A stretch of 64,000 nucleotides of DNA. It comes from an uncultured Olsenella sp. (GTDB lineage: Bacteria > Actinomycetota > Coriobacteriia > Coriobacteriales > Atopobiaceae). Each line of letters begins with the position of its first letter. The stretch's first letter is position 1. The stretch covers positions 1 through 64,000 of the forward strand of contig OMVJ01000006.1 of NCBI GenBank assembly GCA_900314495.1, read 5' to 3'. The notes under the pieces were generated by a model. It had not been told where the DNA came from and ran no database searches. It worked only from the letters and a program-made list of their open reading frames with translations. This document shows positions 27,453 to 32,373 of the stretch, in pieces. The position numbers and the translations under genes were made by a program.

Positions 27453-29021
27453 ATGGTCAATTGGGGAATCCTTGGGGCGGGGAACATTGCACATCGGTTT
27501 GCGCGGAGCCTCTCGCGCGTGGAAGGGGCCCAGCTGGTGGCAGTGAGCTGCCGGTCTGCGCAGAAGGCGGCAAGCTTCGCGCAGGAGTTCGGCGTGGATG
27601 TCGCTCGCGCCTATTCCGACGAGGCCCTTGGCGCTCCGAATGCCGCGCACGAGGCCCTGCTTGCAGACTCGCAGGTGGATGCCATCTATTTGGCGCTCCC
27701 GCACGACCTGCACCACGACTGGGCCATCCGCGCCATGCGCGCCGGCAAGGCGGTCCTGTGCGAGAAGCCCGCCTGCCTCAATGCGCAGCAGGTAGAGGAC
27801 GTTGCGCGCGTCGCGCGGGAGACGGGCTGCCTCTTTATGGAGGGCATGAAGTCGCGCTTCACGCCGGCATACCGTGCGGTTCGGGCTGCCGTGGACGCGG
27901 GGGAGATTGGCGCGGTGACCGCCGTTCGCACTTCCTTGTGCAACGACATGCGCGACCTGCTGGCTTCCGGCAAGACCTACCACAGCCAGCCGCAAGTCGG
28001 CGGCGTGCTGCTTGACTGTGGCATCTATTGCGCGGGCGTCATCGACGACTTCCTGCCGGAGGGTGACGCGGAGCTGGCGGGCTTTGCCGGCATCAACGGC
28101 GACCAAGGGGTGGAGACCTACGTGGACGCGAGCCTTCGCATTGCCGGTCGCACCGCCACCCTGGAGTGCGCGTTCGACCGCGCCAAGCCGCGCACGGCGA
28201 CCATCGAAGGCACGAATGGGCGCATCGTGCTGGAGGAGCTGCACCGCCCGCAGCGGGCCACAGTGTACGCGTTCACGCCCAATGGCTTTCCCTACCAGAC
28301 GCGCGTCATTGACCTGCCGTACGAGGTGGACGACTTCTTCGGTGAGGCGGACCACTTCACGCGCCTGGTGGAGGCTGGCACCAAGGAGAGCCCCATCGTG
28401 CCTCTGACCTCTTCCGTCCGCATGGCACGGATCTTGGACGTGGCTCGCACGGGTCTTGCCGTGACGCCGCGGAGCCTGGCCACGCTGGAGGCCCAGGAGA
28501 GTGCCCTCCGCTACCCGGCGTGGGAGCACTTCGACTCCAGCAAGGCCTTTGAGCTGGGCTGCATTGCCATGCGCCTCTCCACTGAGTATGATCGCGGCGT
28601 CAGCATACGCGTCACGCGCGAAAGCGACGGCCTGGTCATGTTCGAGTGGGCGGCGGACGACAAGGCCCCGCGCAACCAGGTCTTCATGGAGGGCAAGCGG
28701 CAGGTCTCGCTGGAGACGGGCCACTCCAGCCTGTGGGCCTGGGTCGCGCACGAGCTGGACGGCCGTTGCCGGGACCTGTTTGACCGCATGACCGCGGGTC
28801 CCGCGGCGGCCACGCCCGAGAAGCCCTTCGCGTGCGTCACGGCCGGCGCCTTCCCCATATGCGCGGCCACGGCAGACGGCCGCGCGGAGCGGGTGGCCAC
28901 GCTGACGGTGAGCGGCCTGCACGAGGGGCGCGACCACGAGGTTGCTGTGCGCGCGCTGACGGAGGCGCTGAACCTGCGCTACGGCACCGACGTGCCGGCC
29001 TACTGCTCGCTTGCCAAGTAG
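27453..29021 (+). CDS. Gfo/Idh/MocA oxidoreductase fused to a UPF0303 (DUF336-like) domain
   Basis: A 522-residue protein. ATG 27453 follows GGGGGAGA. Residues 1-330 are a Gfo/Idh/MocA dehydrogenase: Rossmann GILGAGNIAHRFARSL, the catalytic-site motif CEKPACLN, and the C-terminal sheet domain. From about 350 to 522 there is a second domain with UPF0303/heme-degrading-family features: FDSSKAFELGCIAMRLS, then RNQVFMEGKRQVSLETGHSS, and GAFPIC followed by VATLTVSGLHEGRDHEV. The oxidoreductase probably acts on a sugar or polyol with NAD(P). The fusion suggests the UPF0303 domain acts on, or signals about, the same substrate. The continuous reading frame argues against a sequencing artefact. Confidence 0.82.
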   Translation: MVNWGILGAGNIAHRFARSLSRVEGAQLVAVSCRSAQKAASFAQEFGVDVARAYSDEALGAPNAAHEALLADSQVDAIYLALPHDLHHDWAIRAMRAGKAVLCEKPACLNAQQVEDVARVARETGCLFMEGMKSRFTPAYRAVRAAVDAGEIGAVTAVRTSLCNDMRDLLASGKTYHSQPQVGGVLLDCGIYCAGVIDDFLPEGDAELAGFAGINGDQGVETYVDASLRIAGRTATLECAFDRAKPRTATIEGTNGRIVLEELHRPQRATVYAFTPNGFPYQTRVIDLPYEVDDFFGEADHFTRLVEAGTKESPIVPLTSSVRMARILDVARTGLAVTPRSLATLEAQESALRYPAWEHFDSSKAFELGCIAMRLSTEYDRGVSIRVTRESDGLVMFEWAADDKAPRNQVFMEGKRQVSLETGHSSLWAWVAHELDGRCRDLFDRMTAGPAAATPEKPFACVTAGAFPICAATADGRAERVATLTVSGLHEGRDHEVAVRALTEALNLRYGTDVPAYCSLAK

Positions 29022-29062: not shown

Positions 29063-29099
29063 CGCGCCCGAGGGCAGTTTGGCCCTCGGGCGCGTTTGT
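29063..29099 (+). terminator. Terminator of the Gfo/Idh/MocA fusion gene
   Basis: CGCGCCCGAGGGC (29063-29075) pairs perfectly with GCCCTCGGGCGCG (29082-29094), followed by TTTGT. Confidence 0.88.
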
Positions 29100-29304: not shown

Positions 29305-32300
29305 CTAGTCGGCATCCTGCTTCGCTGCGTGCTTGCCCTTCCTCTGTGCCTTCTTGTCTCGCCTTGCCTGCTTCTTGGCCGCCTTCCTTGCCTTCTTGTC
29401 CTCGAAGGAGGTGTCGGGGTTGTTCCTGCGCTTGCGGGCATAGAAGACCCAGCCAGCTGCCAGCGCACCCACAACGGCCACCGTACCTGCAGTGACACCA
29501 GCCTTCCAACCGGCGGTGCCCTGGCTCACCTTGGCGCCGGGCGCAATCCCGTTCATGGCGTTGGAGTTTGCCACCGCGTAGCAGATGCGGTGCAGGGACT
29601 CGCGCATGACGGTTCGGGCCGTGGCGCTGTCGTAGTCGCTCGCGCTGCCGATGAAGCCGGCCAGCCACATGTCGCAGCCCGCGCGCAGAATGAGGTCGTG
29701 CTCGGTGGAGCCGGCAACGGAAAGGTCACTCACCACGGCACCGTCGAAGCCCCACTCGTCGCGAAGGACGCTAGTCAGCAGGCCGTGGTGCGCACAACCC
29801 GTCACGCAGCCCACGTTGCTTTGGGCCGCCATGACGCCCGTGCCGGTGCAGATGGTCCGCTGCTGAGCGGCGCCAGATTCGTCCAGGTAGCGGACGTCGC
29901 TGCGAGCGTCCTGCAGGGCAATCTGGAAGGGGCGCAGGTAGATCTCTCGCACGGTCTGCTCGGTTGCCCAAGTGGCAAGGTTGCCGGCGCGGTTGGTCTC
30001 CTGCTCGTTCAGGGCGAAGTGCTTGAGGTAGCTGATCACGCCCTTGTCGCCTGCGCCGCCAATCTGCGCCGCAGCCAGCTTGCCCGCAAGCAGGCCGTCC
30101 TCCGAGAAGTACTCGTACACGCGGCCGCCGAAGGCAGACCGGTGGGTGTTGACTGCGGGGGCGTACCAACCGGTAAAGCCAAAGTGCAGTGACTCCTCGC
30201 CAATGGCCCTGCCCATCTGGCGCATGAGGTCGCAGTTCCAGGTGGAGGCCAGCAGGTTGGCGGACGCCCAGCTTGAGGCGCCGGCGGACTGGGTGCCACC
30301 CCAACCCATGGCGCCGTCGCGGTCCTTGGTGGCCGGCTTGCCCACGCTTTTGATCACGCGCGTGTGGTAGTTGGACATGAACAGAAGCTCCTGAACGTCG
30401 GATTTCTCCGCATCCCAGTCCACCTGGTCCAGCAGGGAGTTCCAGCGCTCGTCGTCATAGGGGACGCCGCGCAGGGTCGCCAGGGTGAGGCCGTTGTCGG
30501 CCCCGGAGGCGGGCATGCCGTCCGCGTAGACCTCAGAGCCCTGGACGTTGCCCAGCAGGGAGTCGGTGGTGGGGTCGAAGCTGGTCATCCACTCGCGCTC
30601 GTCCACGGCAACCTGCGGGGCCTCCTTCTGGCGCCCCTCCGGCATGGTGGGCTGGGTGCCCTGCCAGTCGGCGCGGGACAGCTTGGTCACGGAGGGGTCG
30701 TCCATGTAGCTCACGAGCGTGGGGAACTCGTTGTGCGCGGCCACAAAGCCCTCTGCGGACTTGGGCTCGCTGGTGGGGTTGCCGTCCTGGTCAAGCTGGG
30801 CCTGGCCGGCGCGGTCGCGGCTGGTGGGGTTGGTGCCCTCAAACCAGGTGGTGGCGCCAACGGTCACGGGCATGCTGTCCAGCACCGTGTGCGCGTTCGC
30901 GCGCAGGCTGACGGAGTAGTCGCCCTCCTCCAGCATCCAGGCGCCCGTGGTGCCGTCGGCGTTTGCGTGATGGTCGTCGTAGGATGCCATGTCATCCAGC
31001 GGGAAAGTCAGCTCCACCTGCGCGGACTGGCCCGGCTGCAGCAGGTCGGTCTTGGCGAAGGCAACCAGGTTGGCGGCAGGCTTCTCCACACCCTCCTGGC
31101 GGTCGTAGTCCGTGTAGGGGGCGCTGAAGTAGGCCTGCACCACCTCCTTGCCGGCCACGTCGCCCGTGTTGGTGACCTTTACGGTCATGGTCACGCGGTC
31201 GTCGTCGCTAGTGAAGCCGCGCACCTGCTGGTCGAAGGTGGTGTAAGAGAGGCCGTGGCCAAAGGGGTAGGCAACCGTGGCGTCGTAGTCGAAGTTGGGG
31301 TCCTCCGCGGCGGCCGTCTCGTAGTAGCGGTAGCCCAGGTACACGCCTTCCTCGTACTCCACGAAGCCCATGGGGTTGGTGCCGTTGCTGATGTTGGTGT
31401 AGCGATAGTCGCCAAAGTTCTGGTAGGTGGGGTCAGAGAAGAGGTCCAGCGCCCAGGTGTCGGTAAGGCGGCCGGAGGGGTTGACCTGGCCCGCAAGGAT
31501 CTTGCCCAGGGACGCGAAGCCCCTCGTGCCGGCGGTTCCCATCCACAGAATGGCGTCGGCCTCGCACTCGCCCGAGACAAGCTCGCCCACCTCGATGGGG
31601 TTGGCGGTGTTGAGAACCACCACCATGGCGTCGCAGCTGCTCTTGGCCGAGGCGATCATGGCCTTCTCGGCCTCGGTCAGCGCCAGATAGTGGGGCGTGC
31701 CGTCGTCGTAGGCCTCGGTGCGCTTGTCAAGGCCCTCGGATCCGTTGCGGCAAATGAAGACCACAGCCGTGGTACCACTTGCGTCCACGCCTTGGTACAC
31801 GGAGGAGTCGAACTCATAGATCTTGTCGGCCTCCACGGAGTTGGTGGTGCCGCCCATGCCGCTCTGGCCGCTGCCCAGCGCAGGAGTTCCGGCGGCGGCG
31901 TCGGGGGAGGCTGCCTCGGCCTTGCCCATGGCGTCGGTCATTGCGGTGTTGATGCTGAAGAAGGGCGTAAGGCCAGCTTCCGGGGTCACCTGGGTGGAGT
32001 CGTTTGCCGCGGCGGCGCCGGTGCCGGAATAGGCGGGGTTCAGGTAGCCGTAGCCGTAGGGGGTCACCGCGGTTCCCTGTGCCAGGGGGAGCGCGCCGTT
32101 GTTCTTGAGCAGGACAATGCCCTCGTCGCACAGCTGCTCGGAGACGGCGTCGCTGGCCTGCTTGGCCTCCTCCAAAGAGCCGGTTGCGGCGGGAACGTAG
32201 GTGGTGTCCCAGCCCTCGGTCCCGGCGGGGGCGTCCGCCTTGGTGTCGCCCGCACCCAAAATGCCGTCGGCAAGCGGCGAGAGCATGTTGGCTGCCCCCG

Positions 32301-32373
32301 TCGCCACGCCCGCCAGCGCTCCGCCCACGATGCTGCCGCCGATCAAGAATCTCCTGCGCGTGATGTCCTTCAT
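29305..32373 (-). CDS. GH3 beta-glycosidase with permuted domain order, exported and membrane-anchored
   Basis: A 1022-residue protein. A Tat-like signal (TRRRFLIGG then a hydrophobic run) opens the protein. The GH3 C-domain comes first (about 75-400; EGIVLLKNNGALPL), then the fibronectin-III-like domain (about 420-530; VTNTGDVAGKEVVQAYF), and the catalytic (beta/alpha)8 domain last (about 640-950; KHFALNEQETNR and the nucleophile Asp in GAVVSDLS). This inverts the usual GH3 order. A membrane helix near 975-995 (AVVGALAAGWVFYARKRR) and a Lys-rich cytoplasmic tail follow, so the enzyme should face outward. It probably removes terminal beta-linked glucose or related sugars. A sensor/regulator pair lies immediately upstream. 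Confidence 0.9.
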   Translation of the reverse strand: MKDITRRRFLIGGSIVGGALAGVATGAANMLSPLADGILGAGDTKADAPAGTEGWDTTYVPAATGSLEEAKQASDAVSEQLCDEGIVLLKNNGALPLAQGTAVTPYGYGYLNPAYSGTGAAAANDSTQVTPEAGLTPFFSINTAMTDAMGKAEAASPDAAAGTPALGSGQSGMGGTTNSVEADKIYEFDSSVYQGVDASGTTAVVFICRNGSEGLDKRTEAYDDGTPHYLALTEAEKAMIASAKSSCDAMVVVLNTANPIEVGELVSGECEADAILWMGTAGTRGFASLGKILAGQVNPSGRLTDTWALDLFSDPTYQNFGDYRYTNISNGTNPMGFVEYEEGVYLGYRYYETAAAEDPNFDYDATVAYPFGHGLSYTTFDQQVRGFTSDDDRVTMTVKVTNTGDVAGKEVVQAYFSAPYTDYDRQEGVEKPAANLVAFAKTDLLQPGQSAQVELTFPLDDMASYDDHHANADGTTGAWMLEEGDYSVSLRANAHTVLDSMPVTVGATTWFEGTNPTSRDRAGQAQLDQDGNPTSEPKSAEGFVAAHNEFPTLVSYMDDPSVTKLSRADWQGTQPTMPEGRQKEAPQVAVDEREWMTSFDPTTDSLLGNVQGSEVYADGMPASGADNGLTLATLRGVPYDDERWNSLLDQVDWDAEKSDVQELLFMSNYHTRVIKSVGKPATKDRDGAMGWGGTQSAGASSWASANLLASTWNCDLMRQMGRAIGEESLHFGFTGWYAPAVNTHRSAFGGRVYEYFSEDGLLAGKLAAAQIGGAGDKGVISYLKHFALNEQETNRAGNLATWATEQTVREIYLRPFQIALQDARSDVRYLDESGAAQQRTICTGTGVMAAQSNVGCVTGCAHHGLLTSVLRDEWGFDGAVVSDLSVAGSTEHDLILRAGCDMWLAGFIGSASDYDSATARTVMRESLHRICYAVANSNAMNGIAPGAKVSQGTAGWKAGVTAGTVAVVGALAAGWVFYARKRRNNPDTSFEDKKARKAAKKQARRDKKAQRKGKHAAKQDAD

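Follow-up and report, generated by a model that had tools for sequence, protein, structure and literature searches.

A Gfo/Idh/MocA dehydrogenase fused to a UPF0303 domain in an uncultured Olsenella: recurrent pairing of the two families and a putative carbonyl-binding role for UPF0303

UPF0303 proteins range from bacteria to yeast and, to our knowledge, are without a settled biochemical role; their bacterial members carry the label 'heme-degrading'. In the window, that is, the whole 64,000-nucleotide stretch of Olsenella DNA analysed here, one gene joins such a domain to a dehydrogenase of the Gfo/Idh/MocA (GIM) family, which raises the question of what a UPF0303 domain contributes to an enzyme of this kind. 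The first-pass annotation had described an uninterrupted fusion with a UPF0303/DUF336-type C-terminus, and had suggested two possible roles for UPF0303, a place in the dehydrogenase's own sugar or polyol pathway, or binding of that enzyme's product or cofactor. The features on which the following analysis draws are:

27453..29021 (+), fused GIM-UPF0303 protein, 522 aa, ATG to TAG
27456..27845 (+), NAD(P)-binding Rossmann domain, PF01408, residues 2-131, Pfam match
27870..28229 (+), GIM C-terminal domain, PF22725, residues 140-259, Pfam match; structural matches extend to about residue 336
27765..27767 (+), K105 of the EKP motif, by alignment at the position of K97 in dimeric dihydrodiol dehydrogenase, and invariant in 24 fused proteins
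28014..28028 (+), D188 to Y192; in the alignment with dimeric dihydrodiol dehydrogenase these two fall on its residues 176 and 180
28473..28976 (+), UPF0303/DUF336 domain, residues 341-508, profile and fold matches
28695..28697 (+), K415, probable counterpart of EfgA K57, present in 61/61 rows; alignment ambiguous by two residues
28911..28934 (+), S487 to D494 (SGLHEGRD), counterparts of EfgA S114 and D121 by alignment
29063..29094 (+), terminator-like hairpin of 13 pairs followed by a T-rich tail, directly 3' of the gene; suggestive only

The 522-residue translation of positions 27453-29021 (+) contained no stop, with the GIM dehydrogenase first and the UPF0303/DUF336 domain second, as had been claimed. 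A start at an upstream GTG (27396) would lengthen the protein by 19 residues; the ATG at 27453 coincides in the alignment with the starts chosen for the relatives. An AlphaFold2 model of the whole protein, built as a monomer from an alignment of 24 fused proteins, reached a mean pLDDT of 90.3, and 91.7 for the second domain alone. The gene stands by itself, with a DUF1304 gene upstream and a GH3 gene downstream, both on the other strand, and forms no operon with sugar genes; the hairpin that follows it was the only one found, against 1.5 expected in shuffled sequences. The neighbouring GH3 glycosidase (29305-32373, minus strand, 1022 residues) has its GH3 domains in reversed order, the C-terminal domain (86-348) preceding the N-terminal one (680-904), and, on visual inspection, begins with a twin-arginine-like stretch and ends in a basic tail.

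The first part of the protein was readily assigned. Pfam matches to PF01408 (residues 2-131, E 5.8e-26, 92 bits against a cut-off of 24) and PF22725 (residues 140-259, E 7.2e-15, 55.5 bits against 27) were obtained, and the best structural match was dimeric dihydrodiol dehydrogenase (PDB 2o48; Z 39.7, 1.8 Å over 310 residues), which was also the best sequence match, at 30% identity. The solved chain of 2o48 has 334 residues and lacks a UPF0303 domain, whereas the window protein has one. K105, D188 and Y192, which we take to be the catalytic residues of the GIM active site, align with 2o48 residues 97, 176 and 180 and are invariant among the 24 fused proteins aligned; as judged from this alignment, the catalytic residues are intact. 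Assignment as the inositol 2-dehydrogenase IolG (TIGR04380) was rejected, the score being 94 bits against a cut-off of 355. The inositol dehydrogenases IolG and IolW (YvaA) are GIM enzymes, like the first part of the window protein. The genome from which the window comes has 7 matches above the GIM cut-off.

The second part matched PF03928 (HbpS-like/DUF336) at residues 360-502 (E 1.7e-11, 44.7 bits against a cut-off of 25). NCBIfam NF002696, of the PRK02487 series that presumably stands for UPF0303, covered residues 341-508 with E 2e-15; since its 56-60 bits fall below the curated cut-off of 146, the domain belongs to a divergent branch. A profile search, named in the first-pass annotation as the test on which its assignment hung, did find UPF0303 similarity: a profile made from 29 such domains retrieved the yeast 'UPF0303 protein' Ybr137w with E 1.3e-12. 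The predicted structure agreed, with Ybr137w (PDB 4clc) as its best fold match (Z 20.4, 2.4 Å over 153 residues, 24% identity), so that this protein is the nearest solved relative by both profile and fold; next came DUF336 proteins including PduOC, HbpS, EfgA and NahX (Z 13.3-15.2), and the likeness to GAF and IclR ligand-binding domains was weak (Z about 5-6.6). One search of the window's genome for a second UPF0303 domain found none. According to the papers that provide background on these relatives (PMC11959614, PMC8153426, PMC4923194, PMC10433868), Ybr137w, unlike the fused window domain, stands free as a decamer and has been implicated in protein targeting through the GET pathway, and PduO of Salmonella is an adenosyltransferase with a C-terminal DUF336 domain, hence a precedent for an enzyme joined to DUF336, although its enzyme part differs from the dehydrogenase considered here.

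The NCBI family name points to a heme-binding or heme-degrading redox domain. Here the 'heme-degrading' label derives from that name and gained no support from the analysis; two members of the superfamily, HbpS and PduOC, are described as binding heme, the latter through His18. By the range of the structural alignment, which is not residue-level, this histidine falls near F366, and in contrast to PduOC the window domain has no histidine counterpart within that range; the fused relatives have F or L at the position, and L061 has W. The PduOC paper states that the yeast UPF0303 protein has Phe at the His18 place, without evidence of heme, and that Thr or Gln occupies it in other bacterial structures, HbpS included. 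Because HbpS lacks that histidine, its absence alone does not exclude heme, which may be bound another way. Heme degradation was nevertheless set aside as the leading idea, no histidine lying at the PduOC His18 place by alignment range, and among the explanations weighed here we give a heme function the least credence, regarding it as hardly probable at all.

How widely the fusion occurs was assessed with a scan of the genome collection that used one nine-residue motif. It returned 34 loci, comprising 24 with a fusion, 5 with the domain beside a GIM gene, 2 with a GIM gene further off and 3 without; two of the loci, L063 and L064, are domain fragments, L064 being among the 5 adjacent cases and one fragment among the 2 further-off cases. 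Within the window's own family, Atopobiaceae, 43 of 140 genomes had the domain and 21 of 140 had it fused. Outside the family, fusions were found at three Paenibacillus loci and in one Erysipelotrichaceae metagenome-assembled genome, and a further one lies on a 3.8-kb contig titled Lachnospiraceae that could be misbinned. A chance event or an assembly artefact was therefore rejected, the fusion occurring in 21 genomes of the family as well as in other groups.

We then considered the history of the two parts in two trees, both of them quick and with some long branches. The UPF0303 tree held 61 of 95 distinct domains (those with fewer than 115 residues, with X, or more than 90% identical with the same state were dropped), and the GIM tree 60 rows (dropping those with fewer than 230 residues, with X, or more than 88% identical with the same state). 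All 22 fused GIM rows fell into one clade of 29 with an SH-aLRT support of 99, whose seven members not fused to UPF0303 include three fused to MurB; close kin of the GIM part without UPF0303 are found in L005, L006, L007 and L009. Fused and unfused UPF0303 rows intermixed, and the fewest switches between the two states were 9 on the UPF0303 tree (60 of its 61 rows counted) and 5 among the 60 GIM rows. One fusion with later losses and several independent fusions both fit these sequence trees. The MurB fusions, at the C-terminus of the GIM part, come from three further genomes of the family, in which the open frame runs to 637-642 residues (L008 646-2556, minus strand; L010 1468-3384, plus strand; L011 586-2511, minus strand). 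MurB is a cell-wall enzyme, and the GIM-MurB fusion is the only MurB_C match in G021, a second and weaker one being present in G004 and G023.

At L062 (6807-8519, plus strand) a lone UPF0303 domain, 62% identical to that of the window, lies about 50 bases behind another GIM gene, at a place where its relatives L031 and L032 carry the fused gene; the arrangement appears to be a natural fission or a loss of the GIM half. Both this locus and the interchange of fused and unfused forms on the trees would suit a neutral fusion, in which adjacent genes were joined although their products are not functionally coupled. Such a reading has to account for the unfused UPF0303 genes as well, in which the two families also meet.

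Among 54 Bacilli loci, 20 had a same-strand GIM gene within 400 bases of UPF0303, 1 was fused and 1 had a GIM gene elsewhere within 11 kb, the remaining 32 having none within 11 kb. (The set comprised 54 of the 56 rows above 60 bits, leaving out the fused gene of L048 and a second copy in G549; lower, GlcG-like rows were not counted.) In 40 control stretches at chosen offsets, of which Bacilli supplied 36 and the window's family 4, no GIM gene was found, against 22 of 54 at the Bacilli loci within 11 kb (Fisher p 6e-7, an overstated value, as rows of one lineage are not independent). In the class to which the Erysipelotrichaceae genome belongs, 8 of 247 genomes matched, one of them with the fusion; a same-strand GIM frame overlapped the domain or lay within about 20 bases of it in 6 of the 7 unfused matches, and of five read further, four had the order UPF0303-GIM-GIM and one GIM-GIM-UPF0303. 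Matches were found in 15 of 396 Actinomycetota genomes, and an overlapping same-strand GIM frame was present in 9/9 examined besides the window's (5 further matches were left out), which amounts to few events because all nine belong to one genus.

Plasmids were sampled as 19 records chosen from 30 listed among 80, plus one from another search. A GIM gene lay within 4 kb in 7 of these 20 records, the hosts being Vibrio, two Rhizobium, two Agrobacterium, Lactiplantibacillus plantarum and, with a neighbour that scores as a true IolG, Ligilactobacillus salivarius. Near UPF0303 in the other 13 of the 20 there was no GIM gene: iolE adjoined it in one (Klebsiella), four had it close to sugar-transporter genes or to a GMC/gluconate 2-dehydrogenase set, four by partitioning or replication genes, one was unannotated and three had nothing telling. 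Loci L132, L146, L147 and L152 were likewise without a GIM gene. A GIM enzyme is thus not an obligatory partner of UPF0303, none being near in 32/54 Bacilli loci and 13/20 plasmid records. Further orders were GIM-UPF, GIM-UPF-GIM and, at L025, GIM-regulator-UPF, the regulator being RpiR-like by eye. The search for other fusions and adjacent pairs suggested by the first-pass annotation thus came out positive in several groups, with differing gene orders and GIM subfamilies.

The partner enzymes were also diverse. From the large Actinomycetota genomes one GIM was tested, that of L243; YvaA-type structures were its nearest, and B. subtilis YvaA is listed as IolW, a scyllo-inositol dehydrogenase. 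For this GIM and those of L105 (a 3-Mb Bacilli genome) and L195 (Vibrio), PRK11579 was the nearest model, with scores slightly short of the cut-off. Of the two GIMs of L245, the second was YhhX-like (PRK10206, again slightly short of the cut-off) and the first fitted no model well. At L207 the GIM beside UPF0303 was a true IolG (375 bits against a cut-off of 355). The fused GIM, dihydrodiol-dehydrogenase-like, is unlike these partners of free UPF0303. Regulators beside the sets were of RpiR (L036, L245), DeoR (L105) and ROK (L243) types, and the neighbours included iolG, iolE, a 3-keto-disaccharide hydrolase, sugar transporters and RpiB. Since orders, partners and regulators differ, a functional link is a better account than one inherited arrangement. 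Such recurrent adjacency, in several groups and with differing orders and GIM types, argues against a neutral fusion, which we consider very improbable.

Several of these neighbourhoods deserve description in their own right. On Rhizobium and Agrobacterium plasmids (L204 1214-4444 and L210 1228-4459, plus strand), a sugar-type ABC transporter, DUF1080, GIM, Tol/PD40-type and UPF0303 genes stand in a row; the DUF1080 gene belongs to the 3-keto-disaccharide hydrolase family, PF06439 being confirmed for L204. At L038 (4890-8510) and L040 (4872-8507), both on the plus strand, three consecutive GIM genes end with the fusion, with an RpiB/LacAB isomerase upstream of the run at L040, and these triple-GIM runs suggest a possible multi-step redox pathway acting on one sugar. 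Upstream of the fused gene, however, a further GIM gene lay at only 4 of those 19 fused loci of the collection for which 3 kb or more of upstream sequence was available.

What UPF0303 might bind was approached through EfgA (PDB 6bws), which has the same superfamily fold as the window domain (Z 13.8, 16% identity) and is described as a free-standing formaldehyde sensor, found almost only in methylotrophs and not an enzyme, whose pocket is formed by K57, S114 and D121. Through an alignment of EfgA with a GlcG-like protein, combined with one of the GlcG-like family with the window domain, S114 and D121 correspond to S487 and D494. The K57 position falls at a two-residue gap in the profile alignment; an ungapped reading gives K415, the only residue at that spot identical in all 61 rows, so that K415 is probably its counterpart. 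K415 and D494 were present in 61/61 UPF0303 rows and S487 in 57/61. By analogy with EfgA, we infer that the pocket is largely kept and putatively binds a carbonyl compound, a ligand class indicated by this kinship together with the keto-sugar and inositol genes in the neighbourhood. Because the pocket is largely kept, binding of the product is favoured over binding of the cofactor. The earlier proposal of a shared sugar or polyol pathway, or of product or cofactor binding, accordingly gained genomic support from the fusions, pairs, neighbours and EfgA-like pocket.

A conserved pocket is equally what the main rival explanation would expect, in which UPF0303 would bind some carbonyl metabolite, be it the substrate, the product or a stray aldehyde, and regulate the dehydrogenase without chemistry of its own. 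EfgA offers a precedent from the same superfamily, and the weak likeness to GAF and IclR domains fits too. However, K404, N408, R416, H490, E491 and H495 are also invariant in the 24 fused proteins, suggesting a more elaborate site, and free UPF0303 beside several types of GIM is less expected of a dedicated allosteric domain; we consider a sensor rather unlikely, though it ranks first among the alternatives. Scaffolding comes next. An oligomerisation or localisation module would gather dehydrogenase subunits without any ligand, and it is consistent with the multimeric state reported for relatives (PduOC octamer, Ybr137w decamer) and with a GIM clade that occurs fused, unfused or fused to MurB. 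It leaves the conservation of the pocket residues unexplained, and unfused UPF0303 beside GIM genes cannot tether them covalently, which makes this explanation improbable.

The reading that we prefer, tentatively and with rather less than full conviction that it is right even in outline, is a two-part enzyme of keto-sugar (or cyclitol or dicarbonyl) metabolism, whose UPF0303 part would hold the carbonyl product and may convert it. The first part would be a GIM dehydrogenase that depends on NAD(P) and belongs to the branch of dimeric dihydrodiol dehydrogenase; on a sugar-like substrate it would turn a hydroxyl into a carbonyl or the reverse. The UPF0303 part would assemble into an oligomer, as its relatives do. 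The resulting carbonyl compound would be held in the UPF0303 pocket around K415, S487 and D494, most probably for a next step in which the keto-sugar would be isomerised, epimerised or enolised. Both the substrate and the assignment of a catalytic, not purely sensing, role to the second part are guesses on our part.

The combination of both families in one protein is presumably present in automatic domain databases. In the openly licensed literature no title or abstract start named a GIM-UPF0303 fusion, a search in which mentions in the body of a paper could escape and in which the phrase 'Gfo Idh MocA' may miss the slashed spelling; PMC3612039, as far as its text bears on these families, lists genes of the two kinds, GIM and GlcG, as having been transferred separately in fungi and is not relevant to the fusion.

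Both domains are already known, and the worth of the finding is that it makes the function of UPF0303 testable. The fusion, together with the recurrent gene pair with dehydrogenases of known chemistry, points to keto-sugars, inososes and aldehydes as the ligand class, and a single protein allows both halves to be assayed together. It is possible, although on balance doubtful, that UPF0303 is an unrecognised keto-sugar or inosose enzyme (an isomerase, an epimerase or an enolising enzyme with a K-S-D pocket) acting on GIM products in Actinomycetota, Bacillota and Pseudomonadota, and that the fusion is bifunctional, passing a keto-sugar between its two sites. Should the second half prove to be an enzyme, current annotation would lack one step in the metabolism of sugars or inositol.
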